Part shown: positions 55,643 through 64,000 of the stretch, in pieces | How positions within the stretch are numbered: position 1 is the first letter of the stretch | How the letters are laid out: each line of letters begins with the position of its first letter | DNA from: Pseudohoeflea suaedae | GTDB lineage: Bacteria; Pseudomonadota; Alphaproteobacteria; Rhizobiales; Rhizobiaceae | Direction of reading: 5' to 3' | DNA: 64,000 nucleotides | NCBI RefSeq assembly: GCF_004354915.1 | Contig: NZ_SMSI01000001.1 | Location: 868,001-932,000, forward strand | The notes under the pieces: model-generated | What the model was told of the DNA's origin: nothing | The model's input: only the letters and a program-made list of their open reading frames with translations | Databases searched by the model: none | Made by a program: the position numbers and the translations under genes

Positions 55643-55996
55643 TCATGCGTCTTGGTCGTGGGTCTTCTCTCGCGAAGACATCGCATTGACGAAATCCTGA
55701 AAATCCAGCCCGTCGACGAAACTCATGTCCCAGTGCCCGAACATGCGGTCGTCAGCCTCGGCTTCTGCCACGACGATCACGCCCGTATGGCGCTTGTCGT
55801 AGCGGATCGTCGACATCAGTCGCAGAACCGCATCCTTCTCGCCTTCCAGAACCTGGGCGAAATTGATGCCGTTGAACTTCAAGGCCCCGGTAATCCCCAG
55901 CTCGCGGTTCTTGGCTGAGGCGGTCTCCACCAGCGGCTTGATATCGCCCGGCGTGAAATCCGGAGCAGCCGTGCTGACATAAAACAAGCGAAACAT
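55643..55996 (-). CDS. BLUF-domain blue-light sensor protein
   Basis: A 117-residue stand-alone BLUF domain that should bind FAD. The photocycle residues are present: Tyr6 (LFYVSTA), Asn30 (AKNRELGITGALKF) and Gln48 (FAQVLEGEKDAVLRL), together with the RYDKRHTGV segment and the Trp/Met pair Trp89 and Met91 (FGHWDMSF). There is no output domain, so signalling must be through a partner protein. It is monocistronic between an intergenic region and a hairpin. Confidence 0.92.
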   Translation of the reverse strand: MFRLFYVSTAAPDFTPGDIKPLVETASAKNRELGITGALKFNGINFAQVLEGEKDAVLRLMSTIRYDKRHTGVIVVAEAEADDRMFGHWDMSFVDGLDFQDFVNAMSSREKTHDQDA

Positions 55997-56334
55997 GTCT
56001 TTCCTTCCTGAAATTATTTTGCCCTTGAGGGCTCGTATATTCCCGGGGTTTAGAACCGGCGCGAGCAGGGCCGCAATTAACTTTGCTAATTCCGGGGATT
56101 TATAAGATCGCGCGCGCGTGCGTGGGGAACTACGGTGAGGAAGGGGTCTCGCGTTGCTCTCGCCCAGGGTCCCTTGGAAATATCTTCAAGAGAAGCGGCA
56201 CTCTCACGGAACGAATGCCGTGGCTTCACGTTCTTCCCCTGCAAGACGAAAAAAGTCCGACTCGCACACTTGGTCTGGAAAACGAAATGGCGAGCCGGAC
56301 AGTACATCGATCAGACATACAAGGAGAGGCTATC
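55997..56334 (+). other. promoter region of the PRC-barrel gene
   Basis: This 338-base gap contains a short alternating CG run (about 56107-56119), two similar GTTTA/ATTTA-bearing segments (ATTCCCGGGGTTTA and ATTCCGGGGATTTA) about 50 bases apart, and the exact EcfG promoter at 56208. Open frame upstream of 56335 is not coding because it precedes that promoter and lacks a ribosome-binding site. Confidence 0.5.
56208..56232 (+). promoter_or_regulatory. EcfG (general stress) promoter
   Basis: GGAAC-N16-CGTT is an exact match to the alphaproteobacterial EcfG consensus, about 100 bases upstream of the PRC-barrel gene start. Confidence 0.75.
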
Positions 56335-57501
56335 ATGATCCGCACTCTGTTGACTACTACCGCCATGGTCGCGATTCTGCAGACCGGCGCGTTCGCCCAG
56401 TCCGAGGACACCACGGCTCCGGCCGCTGACCCCGCAATGCAGACTGAAGGCACTGCCGCCACCGGCGCGCAGGTCGATGCAAATGCCGGCGCCGAAGTCG
56501 AAGGCACCGAGCAGACCGCAGAGGCTCTTCCGAGCGACAGCATTTACGACACTGCCGAGGTCGGCGACGTTCTCGCCAACCGCCTGATCGGCACCTCGGT
56601 CTACAACGGCACCGGCGAAGAAGCTGAAGCCATTGGCGACATCAACGACATCATCCTGTCCAAGGACGGTCAGGTCGAAGCTGTCGTGATCGGCGTCGGC
56701 GGCTTCCTCGGCATCGGCGAGAAGAACGTCGCCGTGCAGTACGACAAGGTCGAAGTGACCGGCGAAAAGGGCGAGGAGCGCTTCGTTCTCGACGCGTCCA
56801 AGGAATCGCTCGAAAATGCTCCGGCATTCGATATCGCTGCGATGACCACTCCGGAAAATACCGGCACCGACACGGCAATGACCGCTCCGGCTGACGGTTC
56901 GGGCATGGCGACCGACACTACCGGCATGGCCGCTGCCCCGGCTGATCCGGCCGCAGCTCCGGCTGAAGAAACGGCCCAGGCTCCGGCCGAAGAGACTGCC
57001 GCTCCGGCCGAAGAAATGGCTGAAGCCCCGGCTGACACGACTGCCAATGAAGAGCAGGCAATGGCCGACGACACGTCTTCGGACGAGATGACCACCGGTG
57101 CGATCACCACCGACAGCGCCACCGCTGGTGCTGAAGAAAAGCTCGCCGTTGATCGCGACAGCATGCAGACTGTCGATGCCGGCACCATGTCCGCCGACGA
57201 ACTGGACGGTGCGACCGTCTACAATTCGGACAATGAATCGATCGGTGAGATCGGCGACATCATCCTCGGCGACAACGAGAAGATCGAAGCTTTCATCGTT
57301 GACGTCGGCGGTTTCCTCGGCATCGGCGAAAAGGAAGTCGCCGTGAACGCGTCCGATCTGGACTTCCGCAAGGATGAATCGGGTAACATCGTCGTCTTCA
57401 CCCCGTTCACCCAGGATCAGCTTGAGCAGCAGGCTGCCTACGACGAAGACAGCTACAAGAACGACAAGGAAGCCGGTTCGCTGAAGGCTACCAAGTCGTA
57501 A
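56335..57501 (+). CDS. exported protein with two PRC-barrel domains
   Basis: A 388-residue protein with a signal peptide (MIRTLLTTTAMVAILQTGAF, AQ cleavage). PRC-barrel 1 is at about 81-142 (IGTSVYNGTGEEAEAIGDIN, VVIGVGGFLGIGEKNVAVQY) and PRC-barrel 2 at about 286-344 (LDGATVYNSDNESIGEIGDI, VDVGGFLGIGEKEVAV). A Pro/Ala/Glu/Thr-rich acidic linker of about 140 residues separates them. The two barrels are clearly duplicated. PRC-barrels occur in photosynthetic H-subunits, RimM and envelope stress proteins; the role here is unknown, presumably in the periplasm. ATG 56335 follows AAGGAGAGG. The exact EcfG promoter upstream makes it a general-stress gene. Confidence 0.9.
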   Translation: MIRTLLTTTAMVAILQTGAFAQSEDTTAPAADPAMQTEGTAATGAQVDANAGAEVEGTEQTAEALPSDSIYDTAEVGDVLANRLIGTSVYNGTGEEAEAIGDINDIILSKDGQVEAVVIGVGGFLGIGEKNVAVQYDKVEVTGEKGEERFVLDASKESLENAPAFDIAAMTTPENTGTDTAMTAPADGSGMATDTTGMAAAPADPAAAPAEETAQAPAEETAAPAEEMAEAPADTTANEEQAMADDTSSDEMTTGAITTDSATAGAEEKLAVDRDSMQTVDAGTMSADELDGATVYNSDNESIGEIGDIILGDNEKIEAFIVDVGGFLGIGEKEVAVNASDLDFRKDESGNIVVFTPFTQDQLEQQAAYDEDSYKNDKEAGSLKATKS

Positions 57502-57526
57502 GCAACCAAAACCTTGAAATCTTGAG

Positions 57527-57555
57527 AAGCCGGCCTTTTGGGCCGGCTTTTTTTT
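57527..57555 (+). terminator. intrinsic terminator of the PRC-barrel gene
   Basis: AAGCCGGCC-TTTTG-GGCCGGCTT followed by a T-run lies 25 bases after the stop. Confidence 0.9.
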
Positions 57556-57580
57556 GGAACTTCACAAGGCCGATTACGTT
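57556..57580 (+). promoter_or_regulatory. EcfG (general stress) promoter
   Basis: GGAAC-N16-CGTT, exact to consensus, starts right at the end of the preceding terminator and 37 bases ahead of the YqjD-like gene start. Confidence 0.78.
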
Positions 57581-57616
57581 GAATCAGCGAGTTCAATTAA
57601 TTTTACGGAGATAAAC

Positions 57617-57952
57617 ATGGCACGTGCAGCAACTTCCAATTCCGCTCCCAAGGCGACCGGCGATATCAGCGCCGACATGGAAGCGCAGATCGCGCACCTG
57701 AAAGCGGAAATGAGCAAGCTGGCCGAGAGCGTGTCGAATGCCGGCTCCGTCATCGCCAAGGACGTCAAGGGTAACGCCCGCGTGCGCGGCGAACAGGTTC
57801 GTCGCCAGTCGGAAGCCACCATCCGCGACTTGCGCGAGCAACTGGACGAGATCGAAGCGACCGTGAGCGGCCATGTCCGCGAGCGTCCGCTGACGGCAAT
57901 TGCCGCTGCTGCGGGCGTCGGCTTCCTGGTCGCACTTCTCGCGCGCCGGTAA
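57617..57952 (+). CDS. YqjD/ElaB-like (DUF883) membrane-anchored protein
   Basis: A 111-residue protein with the layout of YqjD/ElaB. A polar N-terminus precedes a long coiled-coil-like helix (MEAQIAHLKAEMSKLAESVS, then VRRQSEATIRDLREQLDEIE) and one C-terminal membrane helix (PLTAIAAAAGVGFLVALLARR). In E. coli such proteins are stress-induced inner-membrane proteins that can bind ribosomes. ATG 57617 follows ACGGAGATAAAC; upstream in-frame sequence overlaps the EcfG promoter and is not coding. The next gene starts 12 bases later. Confidence 0.87.
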   Translation: MARAATSNSAPKATGDISADMEAQIAHLKAEMSKLAESVSNAGSVIAKDVKGNARVRGEQVRRQSEATIRDLREQLDEIEATVSGHVRERPLTAIAAAAGVGFLVALLARR

Positions 57953-57964
57953 TAGCTGGCAGCC

Positions 57965-58417
57965 ATGAGGGTACCTTATCCCGCAGTGTCGATACTCTCC
58001 GGCCTGATCTCAGGTGAGACCGGATACTGGATGAAACGCGCCAAGCGTCGGGCGATTTTTCTGTCGTTGGCGGGCCTTCTGTTCGTCAGCGTCTGGGCGC
58101 TTCTGGTCGTTGCGGGCGTGATCTGGTTCTCGCGCACGACCGACCCGCTCACCGCCACCCTCTCGGTTGCGGGCATCATAGCGGCGCTGGCCCTGCTGGT
58201 CATCGCGGCGCTCATGGTGCTGGAGCGGGTGGAGCGTCGCAAGGCGCGGGCGCGTGAAGCGAAGTCGTCGCTTTATACCACGGCGGCCCTTGTCGCCTTG
58301 CCGATGATCATGCGGTCCAGGCCGTTGATGATGCTCGCGGTAGCCGCCGGCGGGAGCGCGCTTCTGGCAAAGGTTCTCGGAACGGGCTCCGGCGACGATT
58401 CCGACTTCGAAGCATGA
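57965..58417 (+). CDS. small membrane protein, YqjE-like by position
   Basis: A 150-residue protein with two strong membrane helices (about residues 30-55 and 65-87) and a third hydrophobic stretch near the C-terminus (LMMLAVAAGGSALLAKVLG). Basic patches flank the helices (KRAKRR, RVERRKARAREAK). The order YqjD-like gene then small two-helix protein mirrors E. coli yqjD-yqjE, whose second member is a holin-like membrane protein; this relation is inference. The start is uncertain: ATG 57965 has a poor ribosome-binding site, and ATG 58031 would begin at MKRAKRRAIF. Confidence 0.75.
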   Translation: MRVPYPAVSILSGLISGETGYWMKRAKRRAIFLSLAGLLFVSVWALLVVAGVIWFSRTTDPLTATLSVAGIIAALALLVIAALMVLERVERRKARAREAKSSLYTTAALVALPMIMRSRPLMMLAVAAGGSALLAKVLGTGSGDDSDFEA

Positions 58418-58472
58418 AATGCAAAATGACATCAACTTGAGCCGTAACGGCCGATAACAGGGAGAATAGACG

Positions 58473-58985
58473 ATGAGCAGTCAGGCTGCAGCTGTCTTGA
58501 AGACCAGAAGCCACGCCCAGGATATCAACACGGGTCTGGAAGCCGATTATCGCGATGACATGACCGGTCGCCTGACCGACATTCTCGCCGCCACCTACAA
58601 GCTCACGATCAAGAGCCATGTCTACCACTGGAACGTCGTGGGCCCCCTTTTCAAACCGCTCCACGAGCTGACGGAAGAGCACTATAACGCTCTTTTCGCC
58701 GCGACCGACGTGATCGCCGAACGTATCCGTGCGCTCGGTCATCTCGCGCCGGAGAAGTTCGGCGATGCCTCGAGCTTCGCGCCCGATGGCAAGTCGCTCA
58801 ACCACAAGACGGCCGAGGCGATGGTCGAGGATCTCGTCAAGGATCATGAAGCCGCCGTGCGCACCATGCGTGAAGCCGGTGAGAAGGCCGGTGACGCCGG
58901 TGACCTCGTGACCGAAGACATGCTCACCCAGTTTCTGACCTTCCACGAGAAGGCAATCTGGATGCTGCGCGCGCATATCGCCTGA
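58473..58985 (+). CDS. dps: Dps-family DNA-binding ferritin-like protein
   Basis: A 170-residue Dps protein. The ferroxidase residues lie in KSHVYHWNVVGPLFKPLHEL (His/His) and ATDVIAERIRALG (Asp/Glu), and the four-helix bundle ends with FLTFHEKAIWMLRAHIA. Dps forms dodecamers that bind DNA and store iron, protecting cells in starvation and oxidative stress. AACAGGGAGAATAG precedes the ATG. It is 55 bases after the YqjE-like gene and is probably read from the EcfG promoter at 57556 as well as any promoter of its own. Confidence 0.94.
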   Translation: MSSQAAAVLKTRSHAQDINTGLEADYRDDMTGRLTDILAATYKLTIKSHVYHWNVVGPLFKPLHELTEEHYNALFAATDVIAERIRALGHLAPEKFGDASSFAPDGKSLNHKTAEAMVEDLVKDHEAAVRTMREAGEKAGDAGDLVTEDMLTQFLTFHEKAIWMLRAHIA

Positions 58986-59010
58986 TCGGACGACGATCGA
59001 CATCACGTCA

Positions 59011-59047
59011 AAAGGCCCGGTCGAGCAATTCGGCCGGGCCTTTCTTG
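59011..59047. terminator. bidirectional intrinsic terminator
   Basis: AAAGGCCCGG (59011-59020) pairs with CCGGGCCTTT (59034-59043), followed by CTTGTT. It lies between dps and the convergent DUF2254 gene. Confidence 0.8.
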
Positions 59048-59076
59048 TTGCTCAGTTGCCGGAACGGTGCAGCGTG

Positions 59077-60333
59077 TCAGGACAGGGAAGGGAGGTGACG
59101 GCGCACCAGCTCGAGATCCTCTTCCGGGTGCTTCTCGAGTTCGAGGGTCTTCATCAGGAGTTCGGCGTGCGTGCGGATAAGCAGCAGCGAATCCTTCGAG
59201 GCAATCGCTGCGAGCCGGTCGAGCGCCAATGCGACGGCACTGGCCATCATGATGTTGTCCCGCGAGGCGCGGCGCAGCGGATGAAAGGCGGTGTCCATCA
59301 TTGCCTGCAGCGAAAGCCCGGGGATGACGAGCCGCAAATTCTCCTCGTCGTCGCATCGCCGATATGTCGGCAGCCCCTCTCGGACCGGCTGTGAGAGCGC
59401 ATAGGTGATGCTGTCGACGCAGGCGCGGGCCGTATAGGTGTCGTTCACACCCGGCGAAAGCGCGCGAAGCGATATCTCGATCAGCAGGTTGATCGAAAAT
59501 TCGACATTGCGGGAATCCGACCGCGACTCCTCGATATTGACGAGCATGGCCAGTTCCTTTGCCTCATTCTCGTCCTCCACCTTTCGGGTGGTCAGCAGAA
59601 GCTTTTCCCCTTCGAGCAGATAGTCGCCGGCTGGCTGGGCCAGACGGATGGCGATCCCGAGCTCCTTGGCCCGCCGCACCGCCTCGAGTTCGTCTATGTG
59701 GCCGACATAACCGGTCTTCCCGGCCGGGATGGAGTAGTTATATTCGTGTTCGTCTTCGGCGATGTCCCATTTCGCATCCCGGTCCATCAGCTCTTCGATG
59801 TCCTTGAAGAGCTTGCGGGAGATCGCCGCAATTTCGTCGTCGATCGTCACCGTCGTGGAAACATGGCGGACGAAATAGATGAGCTGCACCACCGAAAGGA
59901 TGGCCAGAAAGCCTGCGACGGAAATCGTGATCTTCGGCAGGAAGTCCTCTCGGATCATCATGATGGTGACGAGGCTGTAGAGGAACGTGCCGCCGAGAAT
60001 GCCGGCGGTCACCTGATTGACCGGCTCCGTGGTAAACCTGCGCAGCAGCCGCGGGCCGATATTGCCGGCAGCCAGTGTGAAGACCAGCAGCACGAGCGAG
60101 TAGGTGAGGCTGAGCGCGGTGACCGCGCCGGTCGCCACGGCGGACAGAAGCGTGTGTGCGCTCTCCGGATCGATCTGAAGCACGAACGGGCTCATGATGC
60201 CCTCGGCATAATTGCTGTCGATCCAGTAGAGCGGCAGCGGCATGGCGGCAATGCTGAGCGCGATCATCGCCGGCATCGTCAGCAGCACGAAAATGGTCTG
60301 CGGCATCCGCCTGATCTGTTCGCGTAGCCTCAT
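59077..60333 (-). CDS. DUF2254 membrane protein
   Basis: A 418-residue protein of the DUF2254 family: four membrane helices in the first 150 residues (about 12-33, 62-86, 107-128 and 138-158) and a large soluble C-terminal part (SPGVNDTYTARACVDSITYA is a typical conserved stretch). The function is unknown. Its start overlaps the DGK-like gene by four bases (ATGA), and that gene follows the Crp/Fnr gene, so the three are one operon next to the stress locus. Confidence 0.88.
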   Translation of the reverse strand: MRLREQIRRMPQTIFVLLTMPAMIALSIAAMPLPLYWIDSNYAEGIMSPFVLQIDPESAHTLLSAVATGAVTALSLTYSLVLLVFTLAAGNIGPRLLRRFTTEPVNQVTAGILGGTFLYSLVTIMMIREDFLPKITISVAGFLAILSVVQLIYFVRHVSTTVTIDDEIAAISRKLFKDIEELMDRDAKWDIAEDEHEYNYSIPAGKTGYVGHIDELEAVRRAKELGIAIRLAQPAGDYLLEGEKLLLTTRKVEDENEAKELAMLVNIEESRSDSRNVEFSINLLIEISLRALSPGVNDTYTARACVDSITYALSQPVREGLPTYRRCDDEENLRLVIPGLSLQAMMDTAFHPLRRASRDNIMMASAVALALDRLAAIASKDSLLLIRTHAELLMKTLELEKHPEEDLELVRRHLPSLS

Positions 60334-61241
60334 GCCTCTTCCTCATTCCGCGGGAGGACGACCTTGAGTGCCCCCGGCAGGATCTCGATATCGACGGATG
60401 GGTCGAGATCGACGAGTTCGCCGTCTATCACGGCCTTTGCCGATTTCCGCTTCTGGGGGAAGGAGATGTGGACCTTCCGGCCGCCCTCCTGGACGATGTC
60501 GGGATTGTTGGACCAGTTGCCGAAGGTGAGGTCGGCGAGCATCTTCGCATTGGCGGCGGCGGTCGCCGGCCTGGCGTAATAGATGCCGAGCATGCCGCTC
60601 GTCACGTCGTCTGCATAGGGTAGGTGCCCCTCGCCATAGGGGTTGTTGGTCACCGCCAGAGAACTCACCTTCTCCCGAATTTTCCTGCCGTCGACTTCCA
60701 TGTCGATCGGGAATGAAGGCGGCCTGCGGATCGTGTCGAGCGCAGCGATGATCGAAGCGCGGATCTTTCCAAGCTTGGAAGCGAAATTGTAGCTGTTGCG
60801 CTCGGCCACCATGCGCGAGTGAAAGCCGATCGAGAACTGGTGCAGGAAGGGGCGTCCATTGGCGCGTCCGATATCGCTCTTCCCGATCCTGCCCGGAGCC
60901 AGTGCGCGAACCGCATCCTCGAGATCGAGCGGAATGCCGAGCGCGCGGGCGTAAAGGTTCATCGTTCCGGCGGGAAGTATGCCGAGAGGCTTGTCGCCCC
61001 TGAGCGCCATTCCACCTGCCGCCGATACCGTGCCGTCGCCACCGCCGGCTATCACGCCTTCGACCGCGTCGTCATCGAACGCTTTCTGAAGCGCGTCGAT
61101 CAGTTCGTCGCCGCTGACAGGGTGCACCTCGATAGAATTTCCCGCCGCCTGGAAGGTTTCCCTGATGAACTCCCCGAATGTGTCGATATCGGTACTCTTG
61201 AGAGTGCCGCCGTCCTTGTTCAGAATTGCACGAAATTTCAT
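60330..61241 (-). CDS. diacylglycerol kinase catalytic-domain protein (YegS/BmrU-like lipid kinase)
   Basis: A 303-residue lipid kinase-like protein. The nucleotide-binding glycines are in EGVIAGGGDGTVSAAGG, followed by LGILPAGTMNLYARALGIPL and the C-terminal beta-sandwich (AKAVIDGELVDLDPSVDIEI). YegS/DgkB-type enzymes phosphorylate diacylglycerol or phosphatidylglycerol at the membrane. ATG 61241 with AGGTGGACC upstream is chosen; the frame is open further upstream but that overlaps the Crp/Fnr gene. It lies 14 bases after that gene and overlaps the DUF2254 gene. Confidence 0.88.
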   Translation of the reverse strand: MKFRAILNKDGGTLKSTDIDTFGEFIRETFQAAGNSIEVHPVSGDELIDALQKAFDDDAVEGVIAGGGDGTVSAAGGMALRGDKPLGILPAGTMNLYARALGIPLDLEDAVRALAPGRIGKSDIGRANGRPFLHQFSIGFHSRMVAERNSYNFASKLGKIRASIIAALDTIRRPPSFPIDMEVDGRKIREKVSSLAVTNNPYGEGHLPYADDVTSGMLGIYYARPATAAANAKMLADLTFGNWSNNPDIVQEGGRKVHISFPQKRKSAKAVIDGELVDLDPSVDIEILPGALKVVLPRNEEEA

Positions 61242-61255
61242 GGTCCACCTGACCT

Positions 61256-61999
61256 CTAGATGAAGGGACGACTTGACTCTTCGAAACCTTCCCAACTGGA
61301 AACGGTCAACAGGCCTTCCTCGTCGAGGATATCGCAGGCGCGCTCGCGCCATTTGATGAGGTTGCGGTCGGCGAGCTTGCGCAGCGTCTTGTTGGTGTGC
61401 ACCGTGGAAAGTCCCAGAGTGTCTGCAACATGCTGCTGGGTTACCGGTATTTCCGCCGAGCGGCCCGTGAGAAGACCCGCGAGCTTGGCCCGCTGATAGA
61501 GATAGACGAGCAGATAGGCAGCCCGTTCGAAAGCCGACCGGCGTCCGACGCTCAGGAGGTTTTCGTCAAGAATACGTTCTTCCCGCGCCGCCATCCACGT
61601 GATGTCGAAGGCAAGCGTCGGATGTTGCGTATAGACCTTGGAAATCCTGCCGCGTTCAAACACGCAGAGACGAACGGGGGTGAGCGCCTCGATGGAATGC
61701 TGCATCTCGTCCATCAGCGTACCCTGAAGGCCGACCAGATCGCCGGGCATGACGAAATTGAGGATCTGCCGCCGGCCGTCGGCAAGCGTCTTGTAACGAA
61801 AGGCCCAGCCGCTCAGAACGGTGTAGAGATGCGCGCTGTGCGCGCCTTCCACCAGGATCGTGGCCCCCGGATCGGCGACCAGTTCGCCTGTCTTGAAATC
61901 CGAGACGAACGCCAGTTCCTTGTCGGAAAAGTCGCGGAAGGCCGGCAGCGACCTGAGTGGGCACTCGCTGCAGGAAACACGTTTCTTGTCCTTGTCCAA
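61256..61999 (-). CDS. Crp/Fnr-family transcriptional regulator
   Basis: A 247-residue regulator with a cyclic-nucleotide-binding-like sensor (about 20-140) and a C-terminal winged helix (PVTQQHVADTLGLSTVHTNK, then TLRKLADRNLIKWRE). Two N-terminal cysteines (SCSECPL) resemble the start of Fnr-type proteins, but the four-cysteine iron-sulfur set is incomplete and there is no full cAMP-contact pattern, so the signal is unknown. It heads the operon with the DGK-like and DUF2254 genes, beside ecfG. Orthologues in rhizobia often sit in stress loci. Confidence 0.88.
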   Translation of the reverse strand: MDKDKKRVSCSECPLRSLPAFRDFSDKELAFVSDFKTGELVADPGATILVEGAHSAHLYTVLSGWAFRYKTLADGRRQILNFVMPGDLVGLQGTLMDEMQHSIEALTPVRLCVFERGRISKVYTQHPTLAFDITWMAAREERILDENLLSVGRRSAFERAAYLLVYLYQRAKLAGLLTGRSAEIPVTQQHVADTLGLSTVHTNKTLRKLADRNLIKWRERACDILDEEGLLTVSSWEGFEESSRPFI

Positions 62000-62081
62000 T
62001 TGCCCCTCCGGTATGTTCGCTGTCCGCCCAGAAGCAAAAGCTCATAAGGGGACATTGGTTCCCGAGGGCAGGGTAGACACA

Positions 62082-62110
62082 AAAAGGCCGGGTGGCAGGA
62101 GCCACCCGGC
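62082..62110 (-). terminator. intrinsic terminator of nepR-ecfG
   Basis: A perfect 10-bp stem GCCGGGTGGC / GCCACCCGGC with a 4-base loop is followed on the minus strand by TTTTT, 12 bases after the ecfG stop. Confidence 0.9.
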
Positions 62111-62121
62111 TGAAAAAAATA

Positions 62122-62676
62122 TCAGGATGCGAAAGAGCGCAGCGTGGTCGCCGCCGAGGTCTTGTCCGGCCCGAAATCGGCTTCTCCGTCGATTTGAAGA
62201 ATCTCCTGAAGACGTGCGCGGGCGCGGCTGACGCGGCTCTTGATGGTGCCGACGCGGCATTCACAGATCGCGGCCACTTCCTCGTAAGCAAAGCCCGACG
62301 CACCAACGAGCAGCAGCGCTTCTCGCTGATCCTCCGGTAACTGGTTCAGCGCCTTGGAGAAATCCTGCAGGTCGAGAGATCCGTACTGGCCCGGATGGAC
62401 CGCCAGCTTTTCGGTGAACACGCCGTCAGAATCCTGCACCTCACGGCCTTTCTTGCGGGCCTGGCTGTAGAATTCGTTGCGCAGGATCGTGAAGATCCAC
62501 GCCTTTATGTTGGTGCCGATCTCAAAGCGGTCCTGGGCGCCCCAGGCCTTCAGGATGGCATCCTGCACCAGATCATCGGCCCGGTCTGCATTGCCGCAGA
62601 GCGAAACCGCGAATGCGCGAAGGTTCGGCAAGACAGCCAACAGGTCGCGCTTGAAGGGATCCGATGCCTCACTCAT
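62122..62676 (-). CDS. ecfG: RNA polymerase ECF sigma factor EcfG (general stress response)
   Basis: A 184-residue ECF sigma factor of the EcfG group. Sigma region 2 is at about 10-75 (DRADDLVQDAILKAWGAQDR, TNIKAWIFTILRNEFYSQAR) and region 4 at about 105-165 (ALNQLPEDQREALLLVGASG, YEEVAAICECRVGTIKSRVS). It directs RNA polymerase to GGAAC-N16/17-CGTT promoters, several of which are in this window. NepR, encoded just upstream with an 8-base overlap, holds it inactive until PhyR-P sequesters NepR. Sinorhizobium names it rpoE2. Confidence 0.94.
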   Translation of the reverse strand: MSEASDPFKRDLLAVLPNLRAFAVSLCGNADRADDLVQDAILKAWGAQDRFEIGTNIKAWIFTILRNEFYSQARKKGREVQDSDGVFTEKLAVHPGQYGSLDLQDFSKALNQLPEDQREALLLVGASGFAYEEVAAICECRVGTIKSRVSRARARLQEILQIDGEADFGPDKTSAATTLRSFAS

Positions 62677-62872
62677 CAGCGTGTTCCGTCTTGCTGCCGG
62701 CGCCTTTTTTCTCGGCTTCGTCGAGTTTTTCGAGGAGGCTCAGGAACTTGTCCGGAATGCCTTCCTGCTCGACGGCGGAATAAAGCGCCTTCAGCTTCTG
62801 GCTGATGATGCGGTTCGGATCCTTCTGCCCGTTCAATCGATCCAAGCCTTTTCCCATATGCTCATGCGGCAT
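62669..62872 (-). CDS. nepR: anti-sigma factor NepR
   Basis: A 67-residue NepR protein. The conserved helical core reads NRIISQKLKALYSAVEQEGI then PDKFLSLLEKLDEAEKK, the segment that binds both EcfG and the sigma-like domain of PhyR. ATG 62872 gives MPHEHMGKGLDRLNGQKD; open frame upstream overlaps the divergent promoter region and is not used. The stop is inside the ecfG start region, an 8-base overlap that couples antagonist and sigma factor. Confidence 0.92.
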   Translation of the reverse strand: MPHEHMGKGLDRLNGQKDPNRIISQKLKALYSAVEQEGIPDKFLSLLEKLDEAEKKGAGSKTEHADE

Positions 62873-62907
62873 TTTTTGACTACTCTTCGGTTCATCTTCC
62901 CTGTCGA

Positions 62908-62932
62908 AATGCGTCACGATAAAAAAAGTTCC
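62908..62932 (-). promoter_or_regulatory. candidate autoregulatory EcfG promoter of nepR-ecfG
   Basis: On the minus strand GGAAC-N16-CATT ends 36 bases ahead of the nepR start; the -10 differs from CGTT at one base. Autoregulation of nepR-ecfG is common in this group. Confidence 0.5.
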
Positions 62933-62940
62933 ATACCGTT

Positions 62941-62965
62941 GGAGCCTTTTTTGACTTCGCTCGTT
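62941..62965 (+). promoter_or_regulatory. candidate EcfG promoter of phyR
   Basis: GGAGC-N16-CGTT, with one mismatch in the -35, ends 41 bases ahead of phyR. Confidence 0.5.
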
Positions 62966-63006
62966 ATCTCTGAGACATAACAAACGTCATCTCAAGGAGT
63001 TCATTG

Positions 63007-63801
63007 ATGTCGATTGCTGCGCGCATCGCGCCCCATCTCCCCTATCTGCGCCGTTTTTCCCGTGCTGTCACGGGGTCGCAAACGTCGGGCGATGCTTACG
63101 TCGCTGCCGTCCTCGAGGCTCTCATAGCGGATATTTCGATTTTCCCGGACGCCTCTAACGACCGCATCTCGCTTTATAAACTTTTCGTGGCGCTGTTTGG
63201 TTCCATCAACATCGATGTCGGCGAGGCCCTGTCGCCCTATGCCTGGGAGCAGCGCGCAGCGGACAATTTGATGCATCTGGCGCCTCTGCCTCGCCAGGCC
63301 TTCCTGCTCGTCGCGGTGGAGGGCTTCAATGAGGATCAGGTCTGCGAGATCCTCGACAAGCCGAAGGGCGAAGTGGAGTCCCTGCTCGAGGACGCGTCGC
63401 GCCAGATTTCCAATCAGGTTGCCACCGACATCCTCATCATCGAGGACGAGCCGCTTATCGCGATGGACATCGAGGAAATGGTTGAATCGCTCGGCCACAA
63501 GGTAACCGGCATCGCCCGTACCCATGCGGAAGCCGTTCGCCTGTTCGAGGAAACGAGCCCGAAGATGGTTCTGGCCGATATCCAGCTCGCCGACGGCAGC
63601 TCGGGCATCGACGCGGTCAACGATATTCTCAAGACTGCGGAAATTCCCGTGATCTTCATCACCGCGTTCCCGGAGCGTCTCCTGACGGGTGACCGTCCCG
63701 AGCCGGCATTCCTCGTCACCAAGCCGTTCAATCCGGAAATGGTCAAGGCGTTGATCAGTCAGGCGCTCTTCTTTGAACGCGTCGACGCCAAGGCGGCGTG
63801 A
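63007..63801 (+). CDS. phyR: response regulator PhyR (anti-anti-sigma factor)
   Basis: A 264-residue PhyR. The N-terminal half (about 1-130) is a degenerate EcfG-like sigma domain, with MHLAPLPRQAFLLVAVEGFN and VCEILDKPKGEVESLLEDAS equivalent to region 4. The C-terminal half is a receiver: acidic pocket ILIIEDEPLIAMD, phospho-acceptor Asp191 in VLADIQLADGSS, switch threonine in VIFITAFPER and the lysine in VTKPFNPEMV. On phosphorylation it binds NepR and frees EcfG. It is divergent from nepR-ecfG, and ATG 63007 is preceded by AAGGAG. The kinase (PhyK type) is not in the window. Confidence 0.95.
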   Translation: MSIAARIAPHLPYLRRFSRAVTGSQTSGDAYVAAVLEALIADISIFPDASNDRISLYKLFVALFGSINIDVGEALSPYAWEQRAADNLMHLAPLPRQAFLLVAVEGFNEDQVCEILDKPKGEVESLLEDASRQISNQVATDILIIEDEPLIAMDIEEMVESLGHKVTGIARTHAEAVRLFEETSPKMVLADIQLADGSSGIDAVNDILKTAEIPVIFITAFPERLLTGDRPEPAFLVTKPFNPEMVKALISQALFFERVDAKAA

Positions 63802-63839
63802 CAAACTTTAATCGTTGCGTGAGGTAATGCGTGTGTCCG

Positions 63840-63864
63840 GGAACCAAAGAGCGGTTCGGTCGTT
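63840..63864 (+). promoter_or_regulatory. EcfG (general stress) promoter
   Basis: GGAAC-N16-CGTT, exact to consensus, ends 33 bases before the start of the DUF1328-like gene. Confidence 0.78.
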
Positions 63865-63896: not shown

Positions 63897-64000
63897 ATGC
63901 TGTACTATGCTCTGGTCTTCCTGGTCGTCGCGATTATCGCCGGCGTTCTTGGTTTCGGTGGTATTGCGGGCGCATCCGCAAGCATTGCTCAGGTGCTCTT
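63897..64000 (+). CDS. DUF1328/YtjA-like small membrane protein, 5' part (runs off window)
   Basis: The first 34 codons read [20 protein letters not shown] then [14 protein letters not shown], two hydrophobic segments typical of the 50-60 residue DUF1328 (YtjA) proteins. The function is unknown; the family is often stress-induced. ATGGAGAAACAAA precedes the ATG as ribosome-binding site, and an exact EcfG promoter lies just upstream. Confidence 0.8.

Follow-up and report, generated by a model that had tools for sequence, protein, structure and literature searches.

The question raised by this locus is whether three short, regularly spaced motifs are promoters of a single stress sigma factor, and how far the set of genes that they control extends. 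The motif, GGAAC-N16-CGTT, consists of a -35 box and a -10 box separated by a spacer of 16 nucleotides (nt). It has exactly three matches, at 56208, 57556 and 63840, in the stretch analyzed here, a 64-kb window (C1:868001-932000) of the 3.77-Mb genome of Pseudohoeflea suaedae. The three sites are very probably promoters read by the sigma factor EcfG, whose gene lies between them. With the same high confidence, the locus can be regarded as an instance of a conserved cluster for the general stress response, where the regulators and several effectors would each have an EcfG promoter of their own. This reading follows from the identity of the motif to the published EcfG consensus, the adjoining position of the genome's sole close EcfG match, the placement of the sites upstream of genes and the conservation of the boxes while the spacers drift.

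Three exact sites and the genes behind them

All three matches are on the plus strand, have a spacer of exactly 16 nt and are oriented with the downstream gene. The start codons, all ATG, are at 56335, 57617 and 63897 and are separated from the end of the -10 box by 102, 36 and 32 nt, respectively. GGAAC-N16-CGTT is the published EcfG consensus of Rhizobium etli (PMC3892343) and Sphingopyxis granuli (PMC7083833). A -35 box GGAAC, a -10 box CGTT and a spacer of 16-17 nt were taken from the same two sources as the criterion for an EcfG-dependent promoter. The sites and the genes behind them are as follows (aa, amino acids).

56208-56232, plus strand: predicted EcfG-type promoter of the PRC-barrel gene, exact match to GGAAC-N16-CGTT
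56335-57501, plus strand: protein with two PRC-barrel domains, 388 aa (Pfam PF05239, E = 3e-23, two stretches)
57529-57555, plus strand: terminator-like palindrome with a T-run, read by eye, 3' of the PRC-barrel gene and abutting the next -35 box
57556-57580, plus strand: predicted EcfG-type promoter of the DUF883-membrane protein-dps unit, exact match to GGAAC-N16-CGTT
57617-57952, plus strand: DUF883 (YqjD/ElaB-type) protein, 111 aa (Pfam PF19029, DUF883_C, above cut-off)
58031-58417, plus strand: small membrane protein, 128 aa, second gene of the DUF883 unit (open frame)
58473-58985, plus strand: Dps-like ferritin, third gene of the DUF883 unit (Pfam Ferritin, E = 6e-25)
59011-59043: terminator-like hairpin after dps (hairpin scan)
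63840-63864, plus strand: predicted EcfG-type promoter of the DUF1328 gene, exact match to GGAAC-N16-CGTT
63897-64061, plus strand, the window ending at 64000: DUF1328 small membrane protein, 54 aa (Pfam PF07043, E = 8e-16; L031:13897-14058)

A first-pass annotation of this DNA had reported the three sites, all with N16, at suitable distances before a two-PRC-barrel gene, a YqjD/YqjE-like pair with dps and a DUF1328 gene, and had placed the gene for the cognate sigma factor in the same 8 kb. The motif scan confirmed the sites, the distances given above agree with the description, the PRC-barrel and DUF1328 proteins match PF05239 and PF07043, and Pfam and NCBIfam identify the sigma factor as EcfG, accompanied by NepR and PhyR. 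The pair was borne out in its first member, YqjD, but not in its second. The 128-aa membrane protein has no Pfam family above cut-off and none in NCBIfam, and its match to the holin-type family PF07332 (E = 0.01), to which YqjE would correspond, is below cut-off. The Dps-like ferritin matches the NCBIfam Dps model with E = 8e-15, which is under that model's cut-off. The hairpin scan did not list the palindrome at 57529-57555.

The site before the PRC-barrel gene is also present in the three other Hoeflea-type loci examined (L056, L057 and L058), where it is 101-103 nt from the start. A gene for a BLUF blue-light sensor (55643-55996), also found in L056 and L058, is divergent from this promoter.

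Placement, clustering and conservation of the motif

A pattern of only nine fixed bases in a GC-rich genome might produce three matches by chance. The chance expectation is 0.49 per window, and three were reached in 2 of 100 shuffled windows. The genome-wide count also lends something to this explanation: there are 37 exact N16 sites compared to 33 for a reversed control pattern (24 compared to 15 for N17), and in the genomes of 20 relatives the motif count is often below that of the control. Because the raw count is so close to the control, an exact match alone predicts little and some exact matches are not promoters. The genome-wide count alone was dropped as a criterion in favor of placement and conservation.

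The genome-wide scan, which the first-pass annotation had proposed as a check, thus gave no support by number, but it did by placement. Intergenic positions no more than 200 nt before a gene in the right orientation are occupied by 26 of the 37 N16 sites and 13 of the 24 N17 sites, compared to 2 of 30 control sites, the latter being those of the 33 reversed-pattern sites with retrievable loci (Fisher P = 7e-8 and 1.5e-4, respectively). The genes behind the genomic sites code for a catalase, an Fe/Mn superoxide dismutase, DUF892, DUF3309 and DUF3008 proteins, a second CsbD, a second DUF1328 protein, a transglycosylase-associated protein and another PRC-barrel protein, a set that looks like a stress regulon. 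One further gene codes for a sigma factor, in which Pfam detects only sigma-70 regions 2 and 4 and which, judging by its sequence, is taken to be RpoH. The second DUF1328 gene (C1:172626-172816) has its own exact GGAAC-N17-CGTT 37 nt upstream. A scan of the window that allowed one mismatch found sites before 5 of 49 genes (control mean 2.5, largest 8). The gene calls used for it came from a codon model built on 28 long open reading frames of the window, with no model of ribosome-binding sites; they missed nepR and a Crp-like gene, and the scan is therefore uninformative by itself.

Two more exact sites are located just past the end of the window, at C1:933630 (minus strand) before csbD and at C1:935388 (plus strand) before a gene for an AI-2E-family permease. 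Five of the 37 genomic sites are thus inside 11.2 kb, where 0.11 would be expected at the mean density (Poisson P ~1e-7); this interval was picked post hoc, and elsewhere no such site-anchored interval has more than two sites. Two HWE-type (HWE_HK) histidine kinases, one of PAS-like type and the other with a CHASE sensor domain, flank csbD beyond the window end (L031:14151-17348). The view that the three sites of the window form a local regulon holds for the sites themselves but not for their extent: the 11.2 kb contain five exact sites, the regulon is genome-wide, and the arrangement is kept in related genera.

Conservation was examined at 80 phyR loci of relatives, 44 of them from Mesorhizobium, with the P. 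suaedae locus excluded. A gene was counted as having the motif if an exact copy with N16 or N17 lay in the 300 nt before it, and only matches preceded by at least 150 nt of sequence were scored. The relatives' genes were identified by their best tblastn match, in some cases with 26-45% identity, and should be regarded as family members at the locus whose orthology is unproven. The motif is upstream of 71 of 72 DUF1328 genes and 57 of 60 DUF883 genes. It precedes phyR in 63 of 80 loci, DAGK in 40 of 50, the Crp-like gene in 33 of 49, the HWE kinase in 40 of 66, nepR in 26 of 43, the PRC-barrel gene in 25 of 55, the AI-2E permease gene in 10 of 18 and csbD in 4 of 5. None of 319 permuted motifs reaches these counts for any of the ten families. 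The highest counts of single control motifs, 39 (DUF1328), 30 (PhyR) and 21 (PRC-barrel), probably reflect the shared ancestry of close strains. The ecfG gene, which nepR precedes, has the motif in 8 of 69 cases, a count equaled by 3 of the 319 control motifs. At the relatives' phyR loci the motif was found before none of the matches to the CHASE kinase (0/64), the membrane protein (0/5), DUF2254 (0/3), Dps (0/2) and BLUF (0/2). The spacer is mostly variable between relatives, with some positions close to the boxes being fairly constant.

With Mesorhizobium removed, the motif is found before DUF1328 in 28 of 29 cases, DUF883 in 15 of 18, the PRC-barrel gene in 11 of 13, phyR in 19 of 36, the AI-2E gene in 8 of 16, csbD in 4 of 5 and the Crp-like gene in 6 of 12. 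The counts for nepR (9/26), the HWE kinase (3/22) and DAGK (3/11) drop sharply, and that for the CHASE kinase is 0/20. Eleven of the 29 non-Mesorhizobium DUF1328 genes are on the strand opposite to phyR. In a class-wide search DUF1328 was detected in 37 of 142 genomes, including that of P. suaedae. Thirty loci were retrieved, from which two at contig ends (L180 and L195) and the P. suaedae locus itself (L177) were subtracted. The exact motif is present at 11 of the remaining 27, compared to a mean of 0.06 and a maximum of 3 for permuted motifs over all 30 loci. Gene-upstream placement far above control, retention of the motif across relatives while the spacers change, and the clustering of the sites make a chance origin of the three matches extremely unlikely.

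Two observations were made on the Mesorhizobium loci. The non-CHASE HWE kinase often has an EcfG motif there. Some 1-1.4 kb downstream of the point at which the HWE kinase match begins there is also an exact site (L063:12857 and like positions). The next matched gene is on the opposite strand, and the site may be the promoter of a small gene or of an RNA similar to the ReC64 transcript of R. etli.

The density of sites defines a region around phyR. The 69 full-length phyR loci contain on average 7.6 exact motifs per 20.8 kb (range 2-12) compared to 0.42 for control motifs. Nearly all of the sites are in a region of ~10 kb that begins ~7 kb upstream of the phyR start and extends ~3 kb beyond it; outside this region the density is at background level. 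In the 30 full-length loci from outside Mesorhizobium the mean is 5.5 sites and the limits are unchanged.

Regulators, variant sites and the proposed mechanism

The regulatory genes of the window and the sites associated with them are as follows.

62122-62676, minus strand: EcfG (ECF15-type) sigma factor (Pfam sigma-70 regions 2 and 4; NCBIfam PRK12516 above cut-off)
62672-62872, minus strand: NepR anti-sigma factor, 67 aa from an inner ATG (Pfam NepR, E = 2e-13)
63007-63801, plus strand: PhyR, with sigma-like and receiver domains (Pfam PhyR_sigma2, PhyR_sigma-like and Response_reg; NCBIfam NF006623 above cut-off)
62932-62908, minus strand: variant site GGAAC-N16-CATT, one mismatch, before nepR-ecfG
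62941-62965, plus strand: variant site GGAGC-N16-CGTT, one mismatch, before phyR
62036-62062, minus strand: possible degenerate site GGAAC-N16-GCTT before the Crp-like gene

The nepR gene precedes ecfG and overlaps its start; the two form one minus-strand unit, from which phyR is divergent. The NepR protein scores 19.6 bits against the NCBIfam NepR model, below the cut-off of 100. PhyR is 98% identical to its counterpart in a Hoeflea metagenome-assembled genome, 95% to that in a Hyphomicrobiales metagenome-assembled genome and 87% to that in Pseudohoeflea.

The sites could be genuine promoters and yet be read mainly by another extracytoplasmic function (ECF) sigma factor. The genome does contain three further sigma-factor matches, and in Sinorhizobium meliloti 27 of the targets of RpoE2 are activated by RpoE6 as well (PMC6180224). 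The three further matches, however, have only 23-27% identity and are not close to EcfG, the motif is identical to the published EcfG consensus, and the sites center on phyR-nepR-ecfG and thin out at the limits described above. A principal role of another sigma factor is consequently very unlikely, and EcfG is retained as the predicted reader of the sites.

The variant sites before nepR-ecfG and phyR are positioned back to back with their -35 boxes 8 bp apart. The CATT form is present in all four Hoeflea-type loci, that of P. suaedae included. GGAGC-N16-CGTT precedes phyR in three of them (the P. suaedae locus, L056 and L057), and the fourth has GGAGC with GGTT. About one of each one-mismatch variant is expected per window by chance, but both variants are favored by where they lie and by their retention in the Hoeflea-type loci. 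The exact forms of both sites are usual in Mesorhizobium loci. Autoregulation may have been weakened in this lineage. The GGAAC-N16-GCTT sequence may be the remnant of an EcfG promoter for the Crp-DAGK-DUF2254 genes.

Several of these results weigh against EcfG control of the locus as proposed here. The genome-wide number of exact sites is close to that of the control. In the site before phyR the AAC of the -35 box, which is almost invariant, is missing; this triplet deviates in 3 of 79 S. granuli promoters (PMC7083833). The PRC-barrel and AI-2E genes have no motif in about half of the relatives' loci, and no motif is found directly before dps, the membrane protein gene or the CHASE kinase gene.

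The sequence of events proposed for P. suaedae is inferred from its genes and modeled on the known pathway. In the well-established partner switch of this family, a kinase acts on PhyR, and phosphorylated PhyR frees EcfG from NepR (PMC8103513). On stress, the HWE-type histidine kinases would lead to phosphorylation of PhyR, which would then strip NepR from EcfG. RNA polymerase carrying EcfG would initiate at GGAAC-N16-CGTT and raise the amounts of the PRC-barrel protein, the products of the DUF883-membrane protein-dps unit, DUF1328, CsbD and the AI-2E-family permease. Initiation at the variant sites would supply more NepR-EcfG and PhyR. The first predicted transcript covers the PRC-barrel gene and would end at the palindrome abutting the next promoter. 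The second would run from DUF883 through dps to the hairpin at 59011. The three genes of this transcript appear to be a single unit because the gaps between them are 78 and 55 nt. As dps has no motif of its own, EcfG control of Dps is predicted solely through co-transcription from the DUF883 promoter.

Relation to known systems and significance

The promoter type, the sigma factor and the switch are already known. EcfG1 of R. etli has the same promoter consensus and an ecfG-nepR-phyR-kinase locus, and a further EcfG1-dependent transcript, ReC64, is produced from the ecfG1-phyR region; its start was mapped by rapid amplification of 5' cDNA ends and its promoter activity is lost in an ecfG1 mutant (PMC3892343). 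Identification of ReC64 with the DUF1328 mRNA was set aside on grounds of length and position, as ReC64 is 88 nt long and downstream of tcrY, whereas the DUF1328 gene by itself is 165 nt long and, in P. suaedae, located between phyR and the kinase gene. R. etli has a second, plasmid-borne EcfG, unlike P. suaedae with its one close match, and the parts of the R. etli text consulted do not describe a wider target cluster (PMC3892343). S. granuli has the same consensus, an autoregulated nepR-ecfG, csbD and catalase as direct targets and a flexible -10 box. It differs from P. suaedae in having two EcfG paralogs, and its main text, as far as searched, names neither DUF1328, DUF883 nor dps (PMC7083833).

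RpoE2 of S. meliloti is an EcfG-type factor that induces a PRC-barrel gene with a GGAAC...CGTT promoter (PMC3616915, PMC6180224), and rpoH2 is a target of EcfG-type factors both in this species (PMC3616915, PMC6180224) and in R. etli (PMC3892343). In Sinorhizobium loci DUF1328 is inverted and on the other side of nepR, unlike in P. suaedae. A more distant parallel is the RpoS regulon of Salmonella, where DUF1328 (YtjA) and the CsbD-like YjbJ are among the small proteins controlled by a stress sigma factor, although both the sigma factor and the promoter type differ from those of EcfG (PMC5437024).

The conserved context that has been described comprises ecfG, nepR, phyR and the kinase, with ReC64 in addition in R. 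etli (PMC3892343, PMC8103513, PMC7083833). A search of the literature, mostly open-access papers taken without their supplementary tables, found no EcfG target cluster around phyR beyond these members, and nothing in mostly open-access papers joining DUF883 with EcfG. The part of the present results that is least described, and that was not found in print, is the sharply bounded target cluster together with the almost constant association of DUF1328 and DUF883 with it.

A bolder proposal is that in Rhizobiales the phyR-nepR-ecfG locus forms a bounded regulatory cluster of ~10 kb, and that the DUF1328, DUF883, PRC-barrel, CsbD and AI-2E permease genes are retained in it, each under an EcfG promoter of its own, because it matters that they are close to their sigma factor. 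It is conceivable, but on balance doubtful. The part that proximity might play is an equally tentative matter: the clustered genes might be the first and strongest responders, or the 54-aa DUF1328 protein might feed back on the switch.

Several families of uncharacterized proteins thereby receive direct functional predictions that can be tested. The most notable are DUF1328 and DUF883, which at phyR loci almost invariably have an EcfG promoter. Since DUF1328 is tied to EcfG here and controlled by RpoS in Salmonella, the same small proteins may serve general stress responses under unrelated sigma factors. Because the cluster around phyR is sharply limited, it offers a short list of genes from which to ask what the alphaproteobacterial general stress response requires at a minimum. 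If proximity does matter, the clustered genes would be the core effectors of that response.

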